Notes under the pieces: generated by a model
What the model saw: only the letters and a program-made list of their open reading frames with translations
What the model was told of the DNA's origin: nothing
The model's database searches: none
NCBI RefSeq assembly: GCF_030704535.1
Contig: NC_081817.1
Coordinates: 3,797,001-3,861,000, forward strand
Direction of reading: 5' to 3'
Length of the DNA: 64,000 nucleotides
From: Vitis vinifera
Taxonomy: Eukaryota; Streptophyta; Magnoliopsida; Vitales; Vitaceae
Shown here: one piece after another, positions 38,135 to 64,000 of the stretch
How positions within the stretch are numbered: position 1 is the stretch's first letter
How the letters are laid out: the number at the start of each line of letters is the position of its first letter
Program-made: the position numbers and the translations under genes

Positions 38135-38167
<33 letters not shown>

Positions 38168-38384
38168 GATTGATTTATTGAAAGAGATGTAAAGAAGATG
38201 TTGATGTGCATATCTTTCAATAAGAAAAACAGCCTTTGGTATTACGGGGGATGACTGGTGAGTCCTTTTGATTCCTCCGTGCATTGCTCTTTATTCCTTT
38301 ATCTTTTTAAATACAAATTATTGGAAATGTCCTGGAAGGTGTAACATTAGATTAAGAGAGAGAGAGGAGATTGGAAGGCTCCAG
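35456..38384. other. C-D spacer with an internal duplicated flank
   Basis: No gene is seen. After the gene C 3' UTR region, 36660-37330 and 37540-38340 are diverged copies of one another. Shared pieces are GGAAATTGAAGAG.ATTAATAATGGAA, TTCTAAA.ATGAAGT and the GAAAGAGATGTAAAG block. A single version of this flank lies upstream of gene F (about 58600-59380). 37500-37600 (CGTAATCAATTGTGGTGGGCTGACACAGCC) has a match at 58580-58640. An (AAT)n run is at 38137-38166. Confidence 0.55.
38137..38166. repeat. (AAT)n microsatellite
   Basis: Ten AAT units in the gene D upstream region. The matching position upstream of gene F has only a short AATAATAATAA. Confidence 0.9.
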
Positions 38385-38392
38385 TATATATA
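38385..38392 (+). promoter_or_regulatory. TATA box of gene D
   Basis: TATATATA about 50 bp before ATG 38440, at the same position relative to the TAGCTTACCATCATCTA leader as in gene F. Confidence 0.6.
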
Positions 38393-38439
38393 TGTATGCA
38401 TGTCCAAGCACCACGAAGCCCATAGCTTACCATCATCTA

Positions 38440-41830
<3,391 letters not shown>

Positions 41831-42818
41831 AATTCCAAAAGCCTGGTGTTTTGTAGCAGAAGCATCGGAATTGTGGTATCTATCATGTTGAACTAAATGA
41901 TGTGGTATCTATATAAGATGGAAATAAATGATAATATTTAGTATCGGTTGTATTACCTGTCCATACGAGCTATTAGATCGAATACCAATCGCACGAGCGA
42001 CTTGAACGCCCGGTAGACCCGAAGGTTCGTTCTCAATACCCTTCTTTCTCCTCTCCCGGCCACTTTTCTCCTAGGCGGCCAGGCCCATCCTTTCTTTTTG
42101 CTCTCCCTAGGCACTTTTCTCCGGGGCCCACCGCACCTTTATGTGATACTTTAAGGACGTAGCTTTATCATGGTTGAAATTATTGCCAAAACATATATAT
42201 TTAAATAATAATCAAATAAAAATTTCATAATTAGACTAATTTTATTCAAATATACACTTAAATAAAAGTCAAATAAGAACTCCATAGTTATTTTCTTTTT
42301 AAAAAAAATCTTTTATGGGACAAGTTATTGTTGAAAGTACATGTATCAAATTTCATGCCTTTTTTTGTTTCTCTTTATTTTATTAATTTCTTATTTTAAA
42401 AATATTTTTATATATTTTAAATTTTTTTCTACAAATGTACTTATGTAGAAAAATTAAAATTAATTACAGTGAAATATATTTGTACCAATCTTCAAGAGGA
42501 GTGAATAAAATTAATCTTTTTAAACAAATCAACATACCTTGAAAATAACCTAAAAATATTTTAAAAGAACTTTTGGAAATAATTTTGTTCTAATTTGGAA
42601 AAAAAATTATAATTAAATTTAAATAAAAATTATTTCATTAAAAATGTCGTCATCTTTGATATATCTGAGGGTTTTTGGCATTTTTTCGGTTTCCATGTCA
42701 TGATTATTTATTAATTTGTAATTTTAAAATTCTTTTTAAAATTTTTTTTACTCCTAAAAGATAAGATAAAAGACTCATACCTCAATTTTGTTTCATCAAA
42801 ATTTGAAAAAAAAAATTG

Positions 42819-46239: not shown

Positions 46240-48570
<2,331 letters not shown>

Positions 48571-49700
48571 TGTGGACCCGTTTTTTTCACCTACGTCCCC
48601 ACTCAATCGGCGAGACTTGCTTTTATTTGTGAAAAATTATTTTTGGAAAAGTCGGAGTCGCCACTTATTTTATTTTATTTTAAAGGAAAAATAAAATAAG
48701 AAATAAAACCCTAAAAAAAATTACTCCAAAGTTTTTGGAAAAACGTGTCTTTGAAAAAACTTGAGTCTGGATTTGGGGATCAAGTTACTTATTAGGAAGG
48801 TACCTCTAAAAGGTAGCACCCCTCTAAGCCCTATAAAGGTCTCTACTAACTAAGTTAAGGGAGATAAGACAATTAATTGATTAATTGAGGGTACCTAGGT
48901 AGACTAAGGTGATTTCAAAAAATAGTATGTCAAACAAAATCAAATCACAATAAAGAAAAGTTAAGATGCGTACCTGAATGGCTTCTTAAGCGCCATTAAA
49001 AGACATCAAAGGTTAGTTTGAAAATATGACATATAACATGCATTTTTATCAAAGATGATCAAACAAGCATCAAGGCAATCAAATATGACATCAAACATGG
49101 ACATGACTCATGATAACATACACATTCATAAAATTTTAGAGTTGGAGGGTAGAAAGAGTGTACCTGATTAGCGAGCATCCACACGTCTATGGAAAACTAG
49201 GTTAGCTTAATAACAGGTATAAACACTTCTCATATATATCATAAAGAATAATTAAAATCAACCAAATATCAAACAATCCCCTCATTTGAATCAATATTAG
49301 AGAAGATATCAAGAATGTCGGACCCCCCACCAAGGTCCAAATTGCTTTTGCACGAATTGATTCAATTATTCCTATTATTTAGAACCATGAAGTTTATTCG
49401 TGCTTGAGGAAAATCGAGAAAATCAAGAAAATGGTTGAAAGTCAAAAAAAATAGTGAAAGTGCATGCCAAGAGGAAAAATGGCAGCAAAAGATTATTGAA
49501 ATCTAGATTTTATTGTTTAAAGAAGATCCGAAGATGATTCTCTAAAATCAGAGTTATTTGGATGAAGATGATTTTGAAGACACAATTCATAACAGGTGAA
49601 ATCACGAGGAATATGAGAGGGGTGGAAAAAGGAAGAGGGTAGTGTGCACCAGAGTGGCCATGTCGGAGCGAGGCTTGGGGGTTTAGCTGTAGCTAGATTG
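48571..49700. other. Left terminal region of the insertion
   Basis: Non-coding. It contains AAGTCGGAGTCGCCACTTAT near 48650, a phrase I associate with LTRs of plant retroelements (recollection, not verified), and repeated GTACCTGA.T phrases (48971 and 49161). No primer-binding site is recognised. It would be the left part of an LTR if the ends are read as TG...CA. Confidence 0.4.
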
Positions 49701-49764
49701 CTGATGGTTGTTTGAAGAGGCCTCTGTACATTGCTGGCATGTCTGGAGAAGAGCTGGCCATATC

Positions 49765-50125
49765 CATTTCAGAGCATGTGCTCACTTGCTGTCAAAGCGA
49801 TCGCCATGGTCGGGACACATGGGCAACATATAATGAAAAAGAGGCCACAGTTGCTGTTTACAGAACCCATGATAAAACTTTTATGCAGGTCATGAGGTAA
49901 AAATGTTGGTACATAATTGAAATCCTCCAGCAGTTTCTGTGCAACTTCTTCCTGTTCACTTGCATCTATTTCAACCTTGAGAGACCCCACATAAATGACC
50001 TCTGTTTCAGGGGAGAAACCATCCTTTAAATGCAATAGAAAGGCATCTTCATCTAAACTGAAGCACCATTTGGCAGTCACTTTATCTCTTTCAAGATGCA
50101 GCCATGGTATTCTCTGATTTATCTA
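49765..50125 (-). pseudogene. Fragment of class II trehalose-6-phosphate synthase (TPS8-10 type)
   Basis: The minus strand encodes KWCFSLDEDAFLLHLKDGFS, PETEVIYVGSLKVEIDASEQ and EEVAQKLLEDFNYVPTFLPHDL, characteristic of the N-terminal glycosyltransferase domain of plant class II TPS proteins. A frameshift follows, after which the LWPLFHYMLP and CPDHGDR region is still visible in another frame. About 110 of some 850 residues are present. No start or end belongs to the original gene. Class II TPS proteins combine TPS-like and phosphatase-like domains and act in sugar signalling; this piece cannot. Confidence 0.85.
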
Positions 50126-50185
50126 CAGCCATGATGCTTTGAAAATCCGTCGTGAGTCTTCTCAAAAATCTGGTGAAGCCCCTCT

Positions 50186-50389
50186 TCAAAAAGCTGTGTT
50201 GTCCCCCTGAAAAATCTGGTCATTCATTCTTTTCAAGAAAAAGGCCATACTTCCTCTTTCAAGATCTTCATTCCCCATATTTCTGAATTTAAATTCCAGA
50301 ATCTCATACGAAAATTGATTGGCTGCAGATATTTCTGACAGATGGCTTGACTCCAACATGTAATAACTTTCTATGAATTCTGGGTTCAC
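50186..50389 (-). pseudogene. Unidentified captured coding fragment
   Basis: The minus-strand frame contains NPEFIESYYMLESSHLSEIS, FSYEILEFKFRNMGNEDLER and FFLKRMNDQIFQGDNTAF. The composition looks like genuine protein (balanced, acidic and aromatic residues) and sits between recognised fragments on the same strand. I do not recognise the family. Confidence 0.4.
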
Positions 50390-52850
50390 ATCTGGTCTTA
50401 GAAAAGTGTAGAAAAATTCTCTTATATTAACATTTGAATTCTGTTTCTATTGTCAACTTGCTTACATTCAATTTTCTTCAACTGAATGCTCGCATCTTAA
50501 TTGATTTTCAGATGTCCAGTTTACTGAATAACTCCTCATTCTTCAGGCGTATCAAATTGCCCATAATCAGAAATTAACTCTCAGTCAATAGGATTCAGCA
50601 ACTTATTCGCGTGTGTGAAGGCAAATGGGCAGTAAGCTAGAGACTTTCTGATGGATCCTGCATTTCTGGACTTTCGAGAGTGGCTGCCAAGAAGACACCA
50701 AGCTCCACCATCCTCTTGTTCCTCCTGAAGGCTTCTTCTCGACGGGCTTCTTCTTTGTTTTATGAACCAGGACCTGAATCTGGACAAAAAGGCAGCGTTT
50801 ACACCATTGACCGAATTAAGACTTCCGACTTTTCATTTTTTTTTTTTATCTTGCACCATCTAGTTGTGTTTTCTGATCTTACACAATTACTGTAGGAAGA
50901 CGGACTTTTGCCACTTTCAGAAGGTACATGAAACTCAGGTGTAACGCCCATCATCTTCCAAATAACACAAAGAACATCAGACGCTGTCTTCCAGGATTTC
51001 TGTGGAGCTTTTCTTGGCTTCAACTTCATTGTATCTGCTTTAAAATCGGTATCCTTCCAGGACTTGATAACGCAGGAACAGAAGAGATGATTTTTGGAAA
51101 TGAGATTGCTACTGTTGAACCAAGAACTGCAGATTCTGCTGTTGAACAGTCTTCCATAGTCAGCCAACAATGCGTGTCCCCTCAGGAAAACTTTAAAGAA
51201 TGAACTGGAGGTTGTTGACTTGATGCTTATAGGACTGCCTTTTCTGATTCATCTTGTACTTTTACATCATTTTCTGTTTCATCAGTGATCTGTCAGTATC
51301 AGAAAGGATAGAAATGCATTTTCGCTTTGAAGGAGGACCTTGGTTCTCAGCACCTCAACTCAGGCTAAGTTTGCCTGTTTGTTCCCATGTTGAAGCAAGA
51401 AAATATAAATGGCAGTAGTATTTTCTAAGCAGCTCGGCATGTCTTGCGTTTTGTAATTGACTCTTGAATTTCTCAGCCTTGAAGGATGCTTTCGAGATGC
51501 CCATGGAGAACTTCATCCTTTCCAGAATATACGAAATGGAGTTGAGAGCAAGTTGAATTCTTTTAGCTTCATCTTTCTCATGACAAGAATAAACTCGAAT
51601 TCTTTAAAGTCATTTGAATGGGCTTGCTCAACTATTGATTTCTCAAAAGTTCCATGTGGAATGGTTTAATGCAGAAAATGCTAAATTTTCCAACATGAGG
51701 AAAATGAGAAGAAATGCAGGATCTGGAAATGATTTGAAGCAGCTGAGGAACTCGAGCACATATACATTCGGAGGTCAACATTCTCTAAACCCATGGTTAT
51801 TTGTCTATTCTCTGACCTGATGTTCATAAGTTTCTTTAATCACACAATTTCAGAAACTTAATCAAAATATGCGGTTTTCTGTCCATTTTCTGGTTGCCTA
51901 TAGAGAGGTTTCTGAATTGATCGTCACTGGATGAAACACAGGAGACTCATCAAGGATATCTGCTGTGTGCATTAAATTGTTGTGCGTCTCCAAATAAAAG
52001 TGTTCTTGGCCTCCTACTTGGATTTCTCTTTCTATGATTTTCGCCAAACATGTGAGATAGCAATTGGTCGATGCTTGTGGTCCATCTCTTTCCCTTAAAT
52101 ACCCGAACTTGCCACCTCTGGTCTGTTTGAAGGTCCGTCAACTCACTAGCAAAGAGGATAATCAAAGTAACATGAATCACCTAATTTGCAATCACTATTC
52201 AAGAGGTTGGTTTAGACTTCTTTGTGTCATCTGGTGCTTTAGTAGAGCCATTAATTGTCGCTGCTGGGCATTCTTAATCTGATCTCTAGTCGGGGGGTGG
52301 GGGGGGGGGGGGGGGGGGGGCGCGTGGCAACAATGATTGTTATAAAAGGACCAGATTAATCTTCTGGCTGACTTTGAAGCTTTCAGACGTCATCTCTGAG
52401 TCTCTGATGTGATCAAAGCAAGGAAAATATCATGGCAGTCGGGCTCTTTATAAAATCGGTGATAGCTTAGGGGTTTGAAATTGCACGCTTCAACAACCTA
52501 CTATCGTTTCTCCTAAAAAATAATAACAGTAACAGTGTCATGTCTCCAAACATCTCAAGTTCAATCAGAGACCCTATTCCAATATCTCCAATCTGAAATT
52601 TCTAAGTGCTCATGCTCTGGAACCTGTGACTATGCTACTTCATCTCTGTTTGTGCGCGGACAATTGAACTTTTCCTATAATTTTCTTTTCTGTTTTTCGA
52701 GATTCTCCGTGCTGAAGGAGGCCTCATGATGAGTTAGAATTGTCCTCTTTGGCAACGGCTCCCTTAAAAGAAACGGGAAGAAGATCTGTATCCCCATTAA
52801 AAGCTCTACTAATCCCATAACAGTTTCAGAATTCTGAACCAGTTGGTCTC
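50390..52850 (-). other. Captured-fragment region, mostly unidentified
   Basis: Base composition is gene-like rather than AT-rich spacer. Minus-strand frames at 50799-51170 (including LKPRKAPQKSWKTASDVLCV) and 51950-52180 (including LTDLQTDQRWQVRVFKGKRW) look protein-like but I cannot name them. Antisense frames on the plus strand are equally open. The stretch probably contains several short frameshifted pieces. Confidence 0.35.
52299..52320 (+). repeat. 22-G homopolymer preceded by GGGGGGT
   Basis: G6-T-G22 followed by CGCGTGG. This is very unusual in plant DNA. It could be biological (G-tailing, quadruplex) or a cloning or assembly scar inside the composite element. Confidence 0.9.
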
Positions 52851-52894
52851 TTAGCCGGACGAACAGATGAAGTCTGTATGTGATTCCCATTTAT

Positions 52895-53253
52895 TCATCA
52901 AGAGCAAACTGAAGACTCTTGATGTCATATCCCAAGCTTCATCCCATCCAAGTCCTTCATCATTCATCAGTAATCGCATCAATTCTGGAATTGCACGGGT
53001 AGGATGTGTATCGTTCAACTGCACTGCTACCTTATTGTGAAATTCAGACCATTGGCTTGAGCCCCCATCTTTCCTCCTTGAATCTGAAAATAATGTCCTG
53101 AAGTGAGGCATTGCATAGGAAAAATTGTTGCTTTGGTTGCAAGAGCTTTCCATTTTCTGTAGCATCTCTAGGATATAGAACAACACAAATCTGCTGAGCT
53201 CGAGAATGAAGCTGTGCAGGAGCTTCATATTGCCCATCACTAAAGTTGACCAT
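52895..53253 (-). pseudogene. Fragment of plastidic (L-type) alpha-glucan phosphorylase
   Basis: One minus frame gives [40 protein letters not shown] and [15 protein letters not shown]. After a frameshift near 53085 a second frame gives [40 protein letters not shown] and AWDMTSR. These are consecutive parts of L-type starch phosphorylase (PHO1), which releases glucose-1-phosphate from alpha-1,4-glucans in plastids. The QLNDTHPT motif distinguishes it from the cytosolic form (QMNDTHPT). No intron is visible across the stretch. The gene end and start are absent. Confidence 0.9.
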
Positions 53254-53255
53254 CT

Positions 53256-53570
53256 GCCCAGAATTGCAGCATTCTGCTCAGAATTGCAGCATTCTGCTCC
53301 CCTACAGCATTCCTCATACTATTTTTGGTTGCTAGTATTAAGCAATACTGTTCAATACTTGGATTTAAAAATGCAGCGTGATTGGATGAAAGAGTAGGCT
53401 TGTTGATCACAGAATCCATTTGGCAGCCAAGCATTATCAGAAAAGATAGGAAATACTTCCCTAGTTCCTACTCTGTGATACTTGCAAGTCAGACTCACAT
53501 CGTCTTGGAAGAACACGATCTACAGGTTCCAATAGCTGCAAAACATAGACGAAATCCCCTGCTGTGATGG
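53256..53570 (-). other. Unassigned junk between captured fragments, with a 23-bp tandem duplication
   Basis: CAGAATTGCAGCATTCTGCT occurs twice in tandem at about 53259-53305. The minus frame at 53480-53567 contains AGDFVYVLQLLEPVDRVLP, possibly another captured piece, unidentified. Confidence 0.4.
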
Positions 53571-53634
53571 CCATTACGTTTGCTGGAGAATCCCAAAAAG
53601 CACTGCCTTTACCACTAATCTTCGAACCACAACT

Positions 53635-53820
53635 TCAAAAGCAAAGTTGGAGAATGTTACTTTCTGAAGCAACAGACACAGAGAAGCACTCATAAAGAGG
53701 CAACAGTTGTTCTTTAGTAGAAAATATGGATGCCAAATTTGGGCTGCTTGTCAGTAAGTTCTGGAGAGAAGTCAATCCAAACTGAACACTGCTTCTGTCC
53801 ACTGAGGCATTTGATGCCAC
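53635..53820 (-). pseudogene. Fragment of GRV2/KAM2-like DnaJ protein (RME-8 homologue)
   Basis: The minus strand encodes ASNASVDRSSVQFGLTSLQN, LLTSSPNLASIFSTKEQLLP and LYECFSVSVASESNILQLC, matching my recollection of plant GRV2 (a very large J-domain protein of endosomes and vacuolar sorting). About 60 of more than 2,500 residues. It begins and ends abruptly. Confidence 0.75.
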
Positions 53821-53823
53821 TCC

Positions 53824-54075
53824 TCAAAGGTCCTGTAGAGAATATTCATTCAGATCAATATCACCATTGTGCATGGCCTGACTATAAGTGCTGGTGCCAC
53901 CATTGACAAAGGTTTGATTGTAGGAACCTGCAATGTGATTGATCAACCGATTCTTTTCTGTAAAATTGCCATCCCAATTATATAATGTCTGACTCAGACC
54001 TCCAAGATCAATTAGATTCAGATTCTGAACCACCCCATTGCAATTCTGAGTTTCACGCCCACCAGGAAAACCCAA
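53824..54075 (-). pseudogene. Unidentified captured coding fragment
   Basis: The open minus frame includes GFPGGRETQNCNGVVQNLNL, IDLGGLSQTLYNWDGNFTEK and NRLINHIAGSYNQTFVNGGT. It looks like real low-complexity-poor coding sequence rich in Asn, Gly and Gln, in the same orientation as its neighbours. I do not recognise the source protein. Confidence 0.4.
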
Positions 54076-54179
54076 GAGTACTTGCCAATTGATTCTTCCT
54101 GACTTCAGATAATTTAGTTTATGTCTTCTGTGATTTCATTTTTATTTCCAAATTGATTTCTGCCATCAAACTCTTGCAG

Positions 54180-54392
54180 TCTGCTGCCATCCCTATAATC
54201 TTTTCTTTGTTGTAAGGGATACGACATGCAGGGCACCGAACCTCTGTTTCATCCTCCTCAGCCATGTTCATTGTGTCACGCCATCACCAAACACATATCT
54301 CACAACCACATTTGCATGGCTTCAATTTGCTAGTCGGTCAATTCCATCTCTTCAGCACAGAGAGGACAAGTCTTTTCTCCTTCGTCACTCAT
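54180..54392 (-). pseudogene. N-terminal fragment of a NOT4-like RING E3 ligase (CCR4-NOT subunit 4 type)
   Basis: From ATG 54392 the minus strand reads MSDEGEKTCPLCAEEMELTD, then a stop. Shifted frames continue with KPCKCGCEICVW-like and ETEVRCPACRIPYNKEKIIG sequence. This is the start of plant NOT4-type proteins, with the C4C4 RING (CPLC...CPAC). It contains the natural start codon, a premature stop and frameshifts. NOT4 is a ubiquitin ligase of the CCR4-NOT complex; this piece is dead. Confidence 0.8.
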
Positions 54393-54486
54393 GGTTGTCA
54401 CCAGATACTGTTCATCTAACTTTACCACTCTTGGTGGTACGCCTAAGATTATACATCAACATGTACGCATCACCAGATGAGTATGT

Positions 54487-54950
54487 CTATGAACCACTAA
54501 CAATACTACATTCTGAAGATTGTAGCTGACCAATATTTATATGATTTCCATTCATGACACCATTCATTGGTTCAGTGGAAGACAGATGAACAGATGGCTC
54601 AGTTTGAACAGGTTTAGCAGCAGAACTTGAAGACCCCTCTCCAAATGGATGATGACCCAGGTTTGAGACATGCTCATCATCAAATTCCCACCATTGCCCT
54701 GTATTCTCATCTTTAATATGAGCTATGTAATGGCCACTGTTCACAGTAGTCCCCTCGTGAATCAGCACAGCTGACAAGTCATATATTAGTTCAAAATCAG
54801 AAGGTTCAGACAACCTTTCTCTCATATCCAATTCTCCAGGAAAACAGAATGCAGAAGTGATTATCTTCTTTGTTGTAGTCTTTGGAAGGAAAACACAGCG
54901 CTTGAGCTGGAAATTAAGGACATAAGGCCGTGTGGGTAGCTTAATGCTAC
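54487..54950 (-). pseudogene. Fragment of ubiquitin carboxyl-terminal hydrolase UBP26
   Basis: The minus strand encodes [60 protein letters not shown] and [20 protein letters not shown] before [20 protein letters not shown]. It includes the catalytic-His box of the C19 peptidase domain (NSGHY). The piece is intronless and in frame over most of its length, although plant UBP26 genes are intron-rich (family knowledge, exact positions not checked). The Cys box is absent. UBP26 removes ubiquitin from histone H2B. Confidence 0.88.
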
Positions 54951-54951
54951 G

Positions 54952-55125
54952 GATGGCATAAAACCATTGGATGAATCAACAAAGTCATTAAGTACATTAC
55001 TGATCTCCGTGAAAACCCTTCTCCTTGCTTCTGTAGAGTGAACACAAGCTGCCACTAAAAATTGACTAGCCCAGGTTGCTAGTTTATGCATCCAATCATC
55101 ATCAATTTTTCTTTTTTTTCTTTGT
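54952..55125 (-). pseudogene. Fragment of HECT ubiquitin ligase UPL1/UPL2
   Basis: The minus strand encodes KKQRKKRKIDDDWMHKLATW followed by ASQFLVAACVHSTEARRRVF and [17 protein letters not shown], matching the N-terminal armadillo-rich part of the giant plant HECT ligases UPL1/2. It joins directly to the UBP26 fragment at about 54950, on the same strand, in a shifted frame. About 60 of some 3,700 residues. Confidence 0.78.
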
Positions 55126-55339
55126 TTTTTGGAACTTCTGGAATATGGAAGAAACCTATGAAAAATATGGTGGGATATTCCAGTAGTGCAGTACACAATA
55201 GGACCCCTTTCTCAATTGTCAGGTGGCTCCCCATTCTGCCTTCTCCTATCTGCTGAATCAATCAATCCGTCCTTGAGAATAGCTCTAAGCCGTTTAGACC
55301 CAGGTACAGATGAAATTCTCTCCCAAGTTACAGTGTCCC

Positions 55340-55745
55340 TAAGCCAACACAAGCAGATAACACATTCACCAGTGTGATCTCATTCAGTTTCACGGACTGC
55401 CTTCATGAGACAGTATAAATCAATTTCTTCCTCAGAAAGTCCACACTGCACATATCCCGTAATGATGGCATTCCAAGGGGGGCGACTTCTTACAAGAAAC
55501 ACCATCAAAGATTTTTCAAGCTTTCTTCACATTCCCGCACTTGGAATACAGATCATTGTTACCGCATCGAGCAGGACCTCATCAGCCGAAATAAGCATCC
55601 GGAAGACAAACTCGACATCTCCACAAAATCCCTTTCTTCCCCATACACGTTTATCATTGCAGTCTGGAAAACCACATTCCTTCTCATTGGTATTTCTTCA
55701 AACAACTCCCACGCTCCTCAATCTCCCCTCAGTGTACATACCATG
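55340..55745 (-). pseudogene. Fragment of a pentatricopeptide-repeat (PPR) protein, PLS type
   Basis: In shifting minus frames: WELFEEMPMRRNVVFQTAMI, SKCGNVKKA, PPWNAIITGYVQCGLSEEE, LYCLMK and NEITLVNVLSACVGLGTL. These are classic PPR repeat phrases of organelle RNA-editing or -processing factors. Several frameshifts show it is not coding now. Confidence 0.75.
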
Positions 55746-56767
55746 AAATGATCGAATTTTGAGAAGCCACATCTCTAATCCCCATATGAAGAGCTCATGG
55801 CCATGTGACGGGTAGGAGGAAAAACATAAACAAGTATAGTGGAGAGTAGAGGAAACAAAGAGAGAACAAACATGCGAGATTGAAATAAGATAAAGCCACA
55901 TCTCATGATCTTTCAATGGGCTCAGGCTAGTGGGGAAGATCACAAACAGATTTGGGACAAAATAAGTACGCAACCAATATCAACAAAACAATTTGTGGCC
56001 CTTTCCATCCACACCAATCAGCAGTACATTAAATATTCAGAAACGAACACACGGAGAAATCGAATATGGGTAAGAATTCCAAGAGTAACAAGAAGCATAC
56101 TCGGACAGCCTTGGTTGCAATTGCTCCTTTCCCGCTTCCTCTGTGCTTCTCCCAAAAATCCCCCTCCCTCTTCTGTTCTGCCCCCACACTTTTAAAATCC
56201 CTCTCTTGCGTCTTTGTATCAGTTTTTTTTTGTTTTCCTTTTGTAACCGATTCCACCATGGAAATAATATATGTGCTATCCCTCTAAAAACAAAATCTCC
56301 TCTTTTTCAAAATTCTGTTGATTCTCCTTCCAAATAGATGGCGGCCCGTTCCTTATGCCCAAAAAGCCAAAAAATATGATTTAGAAAACTTGTAATAAAA
56401 TGAAATTAAAATAATAAAGAAAGTCATACAAGTCACACAAGTCATTTAGGTCATGCAATCATGTAAGTCATATAAAAAGTGAGTCTAAAAGTACTTAAGT
56501 GGGCCTAAGTGAGCTTAAGTGGGCCTAAGTGAACTAAGCTCGATGAAGTGTCTAAGTGGGCCTAAGACGTTTAGGATAGTGCCTAAGTCTAAATTAGAGC
56601 CGTCAAGGTCATAATGTGGAGTCGGATAAACCCTTCAACCAAAGTCTCCAAAGTGGCTCAGAAAATATAAGTAGTAATGAATAGCAATGGGCCACCAAGG
56701 AACTACTGTGGAGCACTGGAAGCGAACTTAAAGATATGTGCTAAATGGATAAAATTGAGGGTCTACA
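55746..56767. other. Right terminal region of the insertion
   Basis: 55746-56340 may include captured 5' UTR-like sequence. 56380-56767 is non-coding, with degenerate tandem GTGGGCCTAAGTG units (about 56495-56570) and ends ATAAAATTGAGGGTCTACA. No counterpart of the left end is found here. Confidence 0.4.
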
Positions 56768-57796
<1,029 letters not shown>

Positions 57797-59434
57797 AATT
57801 CCAGAATCCTGGTGTTCTTGTGGTACTATCTATAACATTAAAAATAAATGATGCGGCAAGTACAACATTTTACTTGATTTAAGATCTTCAATCTTGTTTA
57901 GCTGCTTTTCCACCATCTTTATATGGAACTTTTTAAAAATCTCTCCAAATGTGACCTTGGGCTTTTCTTAATATCCACACAAGAAAACATTTGAGTTTTT
58001 GATAAGGAAAATGATAGTATGGACAGAAACAACATTGGATCAACCCAGCTTGTGCAAAAGTTTCTCCCTTGAAAGAGATTCTTGAGTTCAACACTCACAA
58101 ATTTTTTGTAGAAAGTACAAACACACCCTCAAATATCATTGTCATTAATAAGATATCCCTCGAATTGGAATACATGGAACCAAATTAAACCAATATTATC
58201 TTTATACTAGAAAAGTTGGAATTGGGCTTTGTTGTAACTTTTGTTATATTTTGTTATTTTTATTTTTGAAAATATTTACGAAAGTACCATTGCTTTCCTT
58301 TCATATATAGGATGGGATAATGATAATTATCAATTAAATGCAGGTCGAAAGATGTGGTATGGCAGCAACGTGTATTGCGTTTGGAAAGCTCCTCTTTCCC
58401 GGCCAAAAAGGCTCATTTTCCACAATTTCATGAAGCCTCTCTTTTTCCTTTACTTTGTTACTTTCAAATTAGAACAATTTACTTAGATTAAGGCGGTAGG
58501 GATGAATCACCTGTGGGAGTGACCCAAATTCTAATTGCTACACCAATCAACATTGATAGAAAAAGTGGTGACGTATTATGGGAATCGTAATCAACTGTCG
58601 GTGGGCTGACGCAACCTTCCCACCCTCCTTTTCTCCAACAACGTGAGTCACATGCTTGAGACCTTCTATGGCAAAACAATTATATCATGCACCTTTGGAT
58701 GATATAAAACAATTATATAAAAGAATTATTTTATATCTAACACGTACCTTTGGATGCTAAAGAAATTTTATGTCAGATACATGTTTTAGTGGTAATCAAA
58801 GGCACAAAAAAGCACACTTATGGGAATATAAAATTTATTTAAATAATTGGAGTGAGAAAAAAAATGAAAAATATTTCTCTGCTAGAAATTAGGATCCAAC
58901 ATTGTTAAATAGGATTTTGAGATGGTAATTTTACAAAAAAAGTTAGTAATAATATCCTAAAAATAAATTGAAGGGTATTAATAATGGGATGAAATTCTAA
59001 AGATGAAGTCTATTGATGCTCTCTCTCTCTCTTTGTATAGTCTTCGAGCTTTATTCATAACTTTTAACAAAATTCTTCCTCAAAAGAAGCTTATGAAGCG
59101 ACAATAATAATAAAAAAGATTGAATTATTGGAAGAGATGTAAAGTAGATGTTGAATATAACTTTAACAAAATTCTTCCTCAAAAGGAGCGACAATAATAA
59201 TAAAAAAGATTGAATTATTGGAAGGGATGTAATGGGATGTTGATAATGGGATGTTGATGGGCATATCTTTTAATGAAAAAAAGTCTTTGGTATTATGGGG
59301 GATGACTGGTGAGTCTTTTGATTTATCCGTGCATTGCTCTTTATTCTTTTATCTTTTTAAATACAAATTATTGGAAATGTCCTGGAAGGTGTAACATTAG
59401 ATTAAAAGAGAAAAAGGATTGGGAGGCTCATGTG
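57797..59434. other. E-F spacer
   Basis: No gene is seen. 57797-58135 matches the gene C 3' flank (AATTCCAGAATCCTGGTGTTC; AAGATCTTCAATCTT). 58560-59430 matches the flank upstream of gene D. It contains a local tandem duplication of about 95 bp around 59066-59230 (TTTTAACAAAATTCTTCCTCAAAAG and AAAAAGATTGAATTATTGGAAG each twice). Confidence 0.6.
59066..59230. repeat. Tandem duplication in the gene F upstream flank
   Basis: The unit running from CTTTTAACAAAATTCTTCCTC to GATTGAATTATTGGAAG is present twice with small indels. The homologous place upstream of gene D has one copy. Confidence 0.7.
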
Positions 59435-59441
59435 TATATAT
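59435..59441 (+). promoter_or_regulatory. TATA box of gene F
   Basis: TATATAT about 50 bp upstream of ATG 59488, at the position of the gene D TATA box but with flanking substitutions (GTGTATATATGTATAGATG). Confidence 0.55.
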
Positions 59442-59487
59442 GTATAGATGTCCAAGCACCACGAAGCGCATAGCTTACCATCATCTA

Positions 59488-62888
<3,401 letters not shown>

Positions 62889-64000
62889 AATTCCAAAAGC
62901 CTGGTGTTTTGTACCAGAGGCATCGGAATTGTGGTATCTATCACGTTGAACTAAATGATGTGGTATCTACATAAGATGGAAATAAATGATAATATTTAGT
63001 ATTGGTTGTATTACCTGTCCATACGAGCTATTAGATCTAGCTCTAATAGATCTAATACCCTTTACATATGAAGGTTCGGTCTCAATACCCTTCTTTCTCC
63101 TCTCCCAGCCACTTTTCTCCTAGGCGGCCAGGCCCATCCTTTCTTTTTGCTCTCCCTAGGCACTTTTCTCCGGGGCCCACCGCACCTTTATGTGATACTT
63201 TAAGGACGTAGCTTTATCATGGTTGAAATTATTGCCAAAACATATATATTTAAATAGTAGTCAAATAAAAATTTCATAATTAATCTAATTTTATTCAAAT
63301 ATACACTTAAATAATAGTCAAATAAGAACTCCATGGTTATTTTCTTTTAAAAAAAAATCTTTTATGTAACAAGTTATTGTTGAAAGTACATGTATCAAGT
63401 TTCATGCCTTTTTTTGTTTCTCTTTATTTTATTAATTCATTATTTTAAAAATATTTTTATATATTTTAAAATTTTTTCTACAAATGTACTTACGTAGAAA
63501 AATTGAAATTAATTATAGTTAAATATATTTGTACCAATCTTCAAGAGGAGTGAATTAAATTAATCTTTAAACAAATCAACATACCATGAAAATAACCAAA
63601 AAATATTTTAAAAGAACTTTTGGAAATAATTTTTTTTCTAATTTGGAAAAAAATTATAATTAAATTTGAATAAAAATTATTTCATTAAAAATGTTGTCAT
63701 GTGTGATGTATCGGACACTCATGTACTAAGGGGTTTTGGCATTTTTTTGGTTTCCTTGTCATGATTATTTATTAATTTGTAATTTAAAAATTCTTTTTAT
63801 AATTTTTTTTACTCTTAAAAGTTAAGATAAAAGACTCATACCTCAATTTTGTTTATGCACTCTGTAAACAATACATTTGTATTGATTTTATGACATAGGT
63901 ATAAAACATTTTGTTGTGAATATGTTACAAAATACATAAAAAAGTGTAGTCCTATAAATTTATTTTAAGATGATTTTACTTAATTCTTCAAAAATGGAAA
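62889..64000. other. 3' flank of gene F (copy of the gene D flank)
   Basis: Aligned with 41831-43168 to the end of the window, with a changed patch near 63035-63085 (CTAGCTCTAATAGATCTAAT) and lacking the TA-microsatellite segment. The right boundary of the duplication lies beyond the window. No gene is seen. Confidence 0.75.

Follow-up and report, generated by a model that had tools for sequence, protein, structure and literature searches.

A giant solo long terminal repeat in a grapevine subtilase exon and the probable capture of spliced host mRNAs by its retrotransposon family

The 64-kb window of grapevine (Vitis vinifera) DNA analyzed here (C13:3797001-3861000; feature positions below are those of the window) contains an 8197-bp insertion at 48571-56767 that lies within an exon of a subtilase gene belonging to a tandem cluster (a gene name that goes back to the initial annotation), and this insertion is a solo long terminal repeat (LTR) of a giant Ty3/gypsy-type retrotransposon. 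With a probability that we put at roughly 85%, it represents a family with giant LTRs that captures spliced host mRNAs into the LTR itself. The evidence comes from the ends and the target site, from a full-length relative and further same-ended LTRs in the same assembly (495.6 Mb in 21 contigs), and from the orientation and exon structure of the gene fragments inside these LTRs.

The insertion begins with TG at 48571 and ends with CA at 56766-56767, and it is flanked by a 5-bp target-site duplication (TSD), ACAAT on the left (48566..48570) and ACAAC on the right (56768..56772; both without strand), the two copies being identical at four of five positions. Four paralogous subtilases of the window represent the empty site, as the joined flanks with one duplication copy align with them gap-free across the joint. 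All four have a C where the left duplication copy has a T, and the mismatch would most simply be explained by a later C-to-T change. The initial annotation had described an insertion that cleanly splits a subtilase exon, with TG...CA ends and a near-perfect 5-bp duplication, and the ends, the flanks and the empty site bear this out. No inverted repeats of 30 bp or more were found around the insertion, no direct repeats involve the element, and the remainder of the window does not match it. The idea that the element ends are remnants of paired LTRs was rejected, as they share only exact matches of 9-10 bp and weak alignments. For the full-length relative, the LTR has the form TGTAGACCC...GGGTCCACA, with a sequence resembling a primer-binding site (PBS) after it and a purine-rich tract before it, and the LTR sense therefore corresponds to the minus strand of the window, on which the solo LTR starts with TGTAGACCC at 56767 and ends with GGGTCCACA at 48571. 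Compared with this relative, the window thus holds a single LTR with a target duplication and without an internal region.

The full-length relative (C4:14317018-14342658) spans 25,641 bp, and its two LTRs (6969 and 6980 bp) are 97.68% identical in one unbroken end-to-end alignment of 6983 columns; the TSD CATGG is present on both sides. Sequences resembling a PBS and a polypurine tract (PPT) lie around its internal region, and the primer is presumably tRNA-Arg. In two internal pieces that together cover 9.45 of 11.69 kb, Pfam matches to Retrotrans_gag, RVT_3 (RNase H-like) and then Integrase_H2C2 (zinc-binding) follow each other; a match to the reverse transcriptase core was not seen in these pieces, between which about 1 kb lies outside the scan. 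A weak G-patch match (E 0.0019) after gag was noted as well (C4:14324150-14328900). The TG...CA ends with a 5-bp TSD, the paired LTRs with PBS and PPT, and the order of gag and RNase H before the integrase are those of a Ty3/gypsy-type element, the paired LTRs being present in the family, namely in the C4 element, and the window copy being one LTR only. The large size, the PBS and the RNase H are, as we take it, only suggestive of the Tat/Ogre lineage. Both LTRs of the C4 element carry a fragment of PP2A-A (HEAT). As there are LTRs with the same ends, and as the full-length element has two matching 7-kb LTRs, the gene fragments belong to the LTR itself, and nothing nested is needed. Of the earlier suggestion of a solo LTR with a second element nested inside, the solo LTR has thus been retained, but no nested element was found, and each end of the C4 relative is formed by a similar 7-kb sequence that contains a captured gene piece of its own. 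The ends of the insertion are indeed those of an element that has two LTRs and pol, which had been named beforehand as part of a possible refutation, but the fragments do not form an ordinary gene cluster.

How large is this family? A motif of 20 nt from the LTR end, in which one position may be C or T, has 868 matches in the genome and none when read backward, and this is an undercount because the window copy itself does not match the motif; in viral contigs the motif had no matches. Searches with the left end gave at least 44 matches including the window copy, from 40 scored of 3759 first-look candidates, and searches with the right end at least 64, from 40 scored of 1763. Twenty longer loci were fetched, eight of which did not show the two ends together and were left outside the count, and the resulting 13 LTRs (the window copy and 12 others) could be cut at both ends and measure 5907-8762 bp. 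Their 5-bp TSDs are identical in seven cases and agree at four of five positions in four more, including the window, while the flanks do not match in L015 and L021, the latter because it is the 3' LTR of the full-length element with CATGG on both outer sides. All 12 other LTRs share the last 0.86-1.1 kb (U5 side) and the first 0.16-0.19 kb of the window LTR. The conserved U5-side end lies at 48571..49660 (minus strand), with its outermost 0.86 kb common to all 12 and the sharing extending to about 1.1 kb in L009 and L015; the U3-side end lies at 55780..56767 (minus strand), with its outermost 0.16-0.19 kb common to the 12 and the entire stretch common to the window LTR and L009 (82%). Some of the others share further parts of the first kilobase. 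In 200-bp bins, the middle of the window LTR is mostly common to zero to two other LTRs; L011 and L012 have their interiors in common, and for L009 and L014, too, parts are found in one other LTR. The same-ended LTRs therefore carry mostly different interiors, which answers the search suggested in the initial annotation for copies with the same two ends but different fragments. One further locus (C13:25003666-25013660) is arranged as an inverted pair: two LTR ends of the family point toward each other, both arms include the same interior module, and the PP2A-A-bearing piece occurs there on both strands.

The interiors contain pieces of host genes on one strand only. Six-frame Pfam scans covered ten of the 13 LTRs (all except L011, L014 and L026), mostly part of the interior, and matches were counted at E≤0.001. 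Eight of the ten carry host-gene domains, with 22 families in sense and none in antisense orientation, and 19 of the 22 also pass the curated Pfam cut-off (GT20, DUF3450 and CCCH lie below it), which leaves 19 sense versus 0 antisense. The window LTR contributes four families (trehalose-phosphate synthase (TPS), RING, UCH and phosphorylase; PPR at 0.0012 was not counted), L027 four (BEACH, aldehyde oxidase/xanthine dehydrogenase, midasin AAA, SNF2), L017 four (WPP, SNF2, NT-C2, PPR), L012 three (peptidase C13, eIF3m, CCCH), L009 two (Tra1/TRRAP, PI4K), L024 two (NOG1 and a coiled-coil match to DUF3450), L015 two (UTP20, glucan synthase), and L021, the LTR of the C4 element, one (PP2A-A). In antisense orientation, the strongest matches are CCDC84 (L021, E 0.013) and SIR2 (window, E 0.023). 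If both orientations were equally likely, a distribution of 22 versus 0 would have a two-sided probability of about 5 in 10 million, a figure that ignores shared ancestry.

The captured pieces correspond to spliced transcripts. All ten donor introns that were found are missing from the captured copies, and for seven of them this could be shown at the splice sites. Five belong to the window LTR (one in the UBP26-like fragment, two in the phosphorylase, two in the NOT4-like fragment), where exons are joined at the positions at which the donors have GT...AG introns, and two of about 0.14 and 15 kb are missing at splice sites from the Tra1/TRRAP fragment of L009. In case of the PP2A-A fragment of the C4 element, four blocks of C17 are contiguous in the LTR, and three introns are thus missing, as judged from coordinates only. 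The two single-block donor loci that were checked, UPL and TPS, both have open frames. Two other gaps were rejected as introns and are not counted, namely a 610-bp gap between two blocks on C13, which is an array of 36-bp tandem repeats, and a 115-bp gap in a PPR locus, which is coding sequence. At the joints of the chained fragments, the donors are nearly identical over short stretches (UPL/UBP26 8 of 8, UBP26/NOT4 8 of 9, and NOT4/next gene 9 of 10 nt), as would be expected if the end of a nascent cDNA paired with the next template. Intronless copies of donors that are chained to each other therefore argue that several spliced mRNAs were reverse-transcribed into a single cDNA.

The preferred explanation is that the LTRs would have grown to about 6-9 kb through captured fragments of spliced host mRNAs in forward direction. 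Host mRNAs would be packaged together with the element RNA, and the reverse transcriptase would repeatedly switch onto them while copying the LTR part downstream of the promoter (R/U5). Such switching might most likely happen during minus-strand strong-stop synthesis, a step for which we see somewhat better than even odds. The R-U5 of both LTRs derives from minus-strand strong-stop cDNA, and this step fits because the captures sit inside the LTR, and in both LTRs. As the step supplies the R-U5 of both LTRs, each capture would enter both ends and be passed on, and the longer the R-U5, the more room there would be for further template switches. Later, the two LTRs would have recombined, so that the solo LTR remained in the subtilase exon. 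That one copy serves both LTRs is described in a passage of PMC1950507.

Promoter-like and splice-like motifs would agree with such a transcribed interior. In eight of the 13 LTRs, a TATA-like box is found at LTR sense 634-760 with the variable zone downstream of it, and because of this position the variable middle is probably transcribed. A donor-like AGGTATG near the start (LTR sense ~740-871) occurs in seven of the 13 LTRs, in five of them 108-154 nt past the TATA-like box, and not at all in 61 kb of captured zone. In U5, CAGGTAY recurs at two places, ~600 from the LTR end in ten of the 13 LTRs and ~410 from it in 12 (the U5-side end of the window LTR contains two CAGGTAY motifs), compared with four occurrences in the 61 kb of captured zone, but as U5 is well conserved throughout, this recurrence alone proves little. 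Together, the splice-donor-like motifs hint at a putative leader intron that would hold the captured zone. One could go further and regard the LTR as a self-extending recorder of host mRNAs, in which another spliced fragment could be written into R-U5 per cycle, inherited by both LTRs, and tolerated in a leader intron that is spliced from the coding transcript; this idea is tentative and rather doubtful at present.

What alternatives exist for a capture during strong-stop synthesis? Template switching is possible throughout reverse transcription, and spliced mRNAs could thus also be picked up at other steps, such as internal copying, plus-strand synthesis or recombination of dimeric RNA. Captures in the internal region would break gag-pol, selection would keep the LTR location, and surviving captures would thus be found preferentially in the non-coding LTR. 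In the C4 element, the scan of the two internal pieces gave no host family at E≤0.001 in the three sense frames, which speaks against this variant, although a single element is too little for a decision. This variant, whose share of confidence overlaps with that of mRNA capture into the LTR as a whole, is possible but clearly less likely than strong-stop switching. Quite improbable is the idea that the spliced pieces entered the LTRs singly as separate retrocopies, by retroposition of the type of long interspersed nuclear elements (LINE). Introns would be removed in this case as well, but the fragments are mRNA pieces without poly-A ends, three joints lie at short near-identities, and by eye, with no dedicated search, neither poly-A tails nor target duplications were apparent between the fragments. 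Moreover, independent insertions should fall both ways, whereas 22 of 22 families are in LTR sense.

As to DNA transposons, Helitron and Pack-MULE ends are absent in the scans run, as the initial annotation had stated. No Helitron 3' CTRR end with hairpin was found on either strand within the limits used for stem, GC and spacing, and a 5-bp duplication is present, whereas Helitrons make no target duplication; terminal inverted repeats (TIRs) with an 8-11 bp target duplication around the gene pieces, as in Pack-MULEs, were not seen either (no inverted repeats of 30 bp or more). A search for a nested TIR element gave 21 inverted 12-nt pairs, all with 3-4 mismatches and accompanied by some duplication, and none better (without shuffle control), and this candidate was rejected. 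A shorter ordinary solo LTR that was later hit by such a gene-capturing transposon would explain why the LTR ends are conserved and the middle differs between copies, and Helitrons and Pack-MULEs are known multi-gene capturers, but this reading is extremely unlikely and already contradicted, as the captured fragments are spliced and sense-only, the scans gave neither a Helitron 3' end, by the criteria used, nor an inverted pair of 12 nt with under three mismatches beside a target duplication, and the full-length relative has the long interior in both of its matching 7-kb LTRs.

Several points weigh against a capture of spliced mRNAs by the giant-LTR family. The TSD of L015 agrees at only three of five positions and is not clear, the TATA-like box is unmatched in five of the 13 LTRs including the window copy, and two of the ten scanned LTRs (L025 and L028) show no host families at E≤0.001. 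The 22 families are not fully independent because LTR copies share modules. Introns were detected as gaps in donor matches, and a retained intron is invisible to this method. The near-identities were counted by eye at the three joints for which both donors are known, without shuffle control. The absence of captures from the internal region is based on one element, on 9.45 of 11.69 kb and on sense frames only, and the strong-stop step, the packaging of mRNAs and the limits of R are putative.

Gene capture by LTR elements as such is known. According to a passage of PMC13317346, the maize LTR retroelement Bs1 carries pieces of three host genes and thus resembles the grapevine family, but its pieces make up a chimeric gene inside the element, whereas the grapevine pieces lie in the LTR itself, in eight of the ten scanned LTRs, and come from more genes. 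Fragment-bearing LTR retrotransposons of maize, rice and sorghum have likewise acquired host gene fragments, as stated in parts of PMC2774510 and PMC3726574. A part of PMC2774510 describes 425 intact maize LTR elements with gene fragments, none of which holds more than one nuclear gene, and a figure legend on rice and sorghum draws captured genes as boxes apart from the LTRs (PMC3726574), whereas in grapevine they lie inside the LTR. Abnormal template switching is described for BARE-2, in which it changes the LTR sequence, and for template-switching complexes of Triticeae in passages of PMC13317346 and PMC1950507, where the partner is another retrotransposon, whereas in the grapevine family it would be host mRNAs. 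Helitrons and Pack-MULEs also carry host gene fragments and were counted in maize, as a section of PMC2774510 reports. The grapevine insertion differs from both, as their ends were not found and introns are removed from the fragments. Helitrons and Pack-MULEs capture genes at the DNA level. Among the titles and abstract starts listed from the open-access literature, we found no report of multi-gene or serial host-mRNA capture inside LTRs, or of this grapevine family; the aspect without a precedent there is that the capture would be serial, take place inside the LTR and concern a whole family. The initial wording of a “new kind of transducing element” nevertheless goes too far, as this is an LTR retrotransposon whose gene capture is unusual in its location and its extent. 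If true, host mRNAs can be repeatedly captured into the LTR and multiplied with it, which would be an RNA-based route to multi-gene chimeras, unlike that of Helitrons and Pack-MULEs, and would explain very long LTRs. The site of template switching in plant retrotransposon replication would become testable, and gene annotation would have to consider that such genomes may hold many intronless, sense-oriented gene-like pieces.

As the initial annotation had proposed, the insertion combines pieces of many unrelated host genes between LTR-type ends, which is evident from Pfam, Protein Data Bank (PDB) and DNA matches, and for seven fragments donor or closely related loci were located. On the minus strand of the window, GT20/TPS, zf-RING_4, UCH and phosphorylase pass E≤0.001, GT20 lying slightly under the curated cut-off, and SIR2 is the sole plus-strand match. 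The names UPL1/2, UBP26 and GRV2 stem from the initial annotation and are putative; a UPL-like and a UBP-like locus were located by DNA match. All fragments are on the minus strand. The PPR fragment (55280..55758) is supported by Pfam, PDB, genome matches and alignment. It lacks ~115 bp of coding sequence that is apparently present in six related loci (five on C9, one on C19), as read from coordinates in six loci with the letters checked in one, and L009 is contiguous across this region. The UPL1/2-like E3 ligase fragment (54950..55210) matches C18:6231832-6232083 (90%), where the frame is open throughout, and gave nothing significant against PDB. The UBP26-like ubiquitin hydrolase fragment (54391..54957; Pfam and DNA match; donor C4:2633176-2635085) consists of two exons fused at a splice junction near 54880, and the NOT4-like RING fragment (54083..54399; Pfam and DNA match; donor C6:4514554-4515966) of three exons without the two introns. 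Next to it lies a piece of an unnamed gene that contains tandem repeats of 36 bp (53782..54104; locus C13:8555618-8556552, 94-95%); the gene itself (C13:8555400-8556800) has a ~610-bp array of imperfect 36-bp repeats, which is collapsed in the captured copy. For the GRV2-like fragment (53640..53781), a PDB search gave nothing significant and the name was not confirmed; four places in the genome cover it at 90-91% and may be other family copies, and four places that cover much of 53066-53855 may likewise be further family copies.

The alpha-glucan phosphorylase fragment (52918..53244; Pfam and DNA match; donor C6:6846973-6848581), in which three exons are fused without the two introns, had been assigned to the L-type but is H-type, as it matches the cytosolic H-type PHS2 of Arabidopsis with 78.9 bits and the plastidial L-type with 39.9 bits (72.1 versus 54.6 in a second comparison). 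Weakly supported is an aldehyde oxidase/xanthine dehydrogenase fragment (51979..52077; PDB, E 0.0057). The TPS (GT20) fragment (49782..50122; Pfam) matches C1:9302608-9302917 with 96% over window positions 49792-50100, with an open frame throughout the match. Parts of 50251-50774 have matches of 82-92% at more than 20 further places in the genome, and part of the chimera thus appears to be widespread. The LTR also contains a G-rich run of 29 bases at 52292-52320 (92% matches to G), and the subtilase cluster holds a 4.7-kb duplication with 95% identity between 38153-42793 and 59193-63854.

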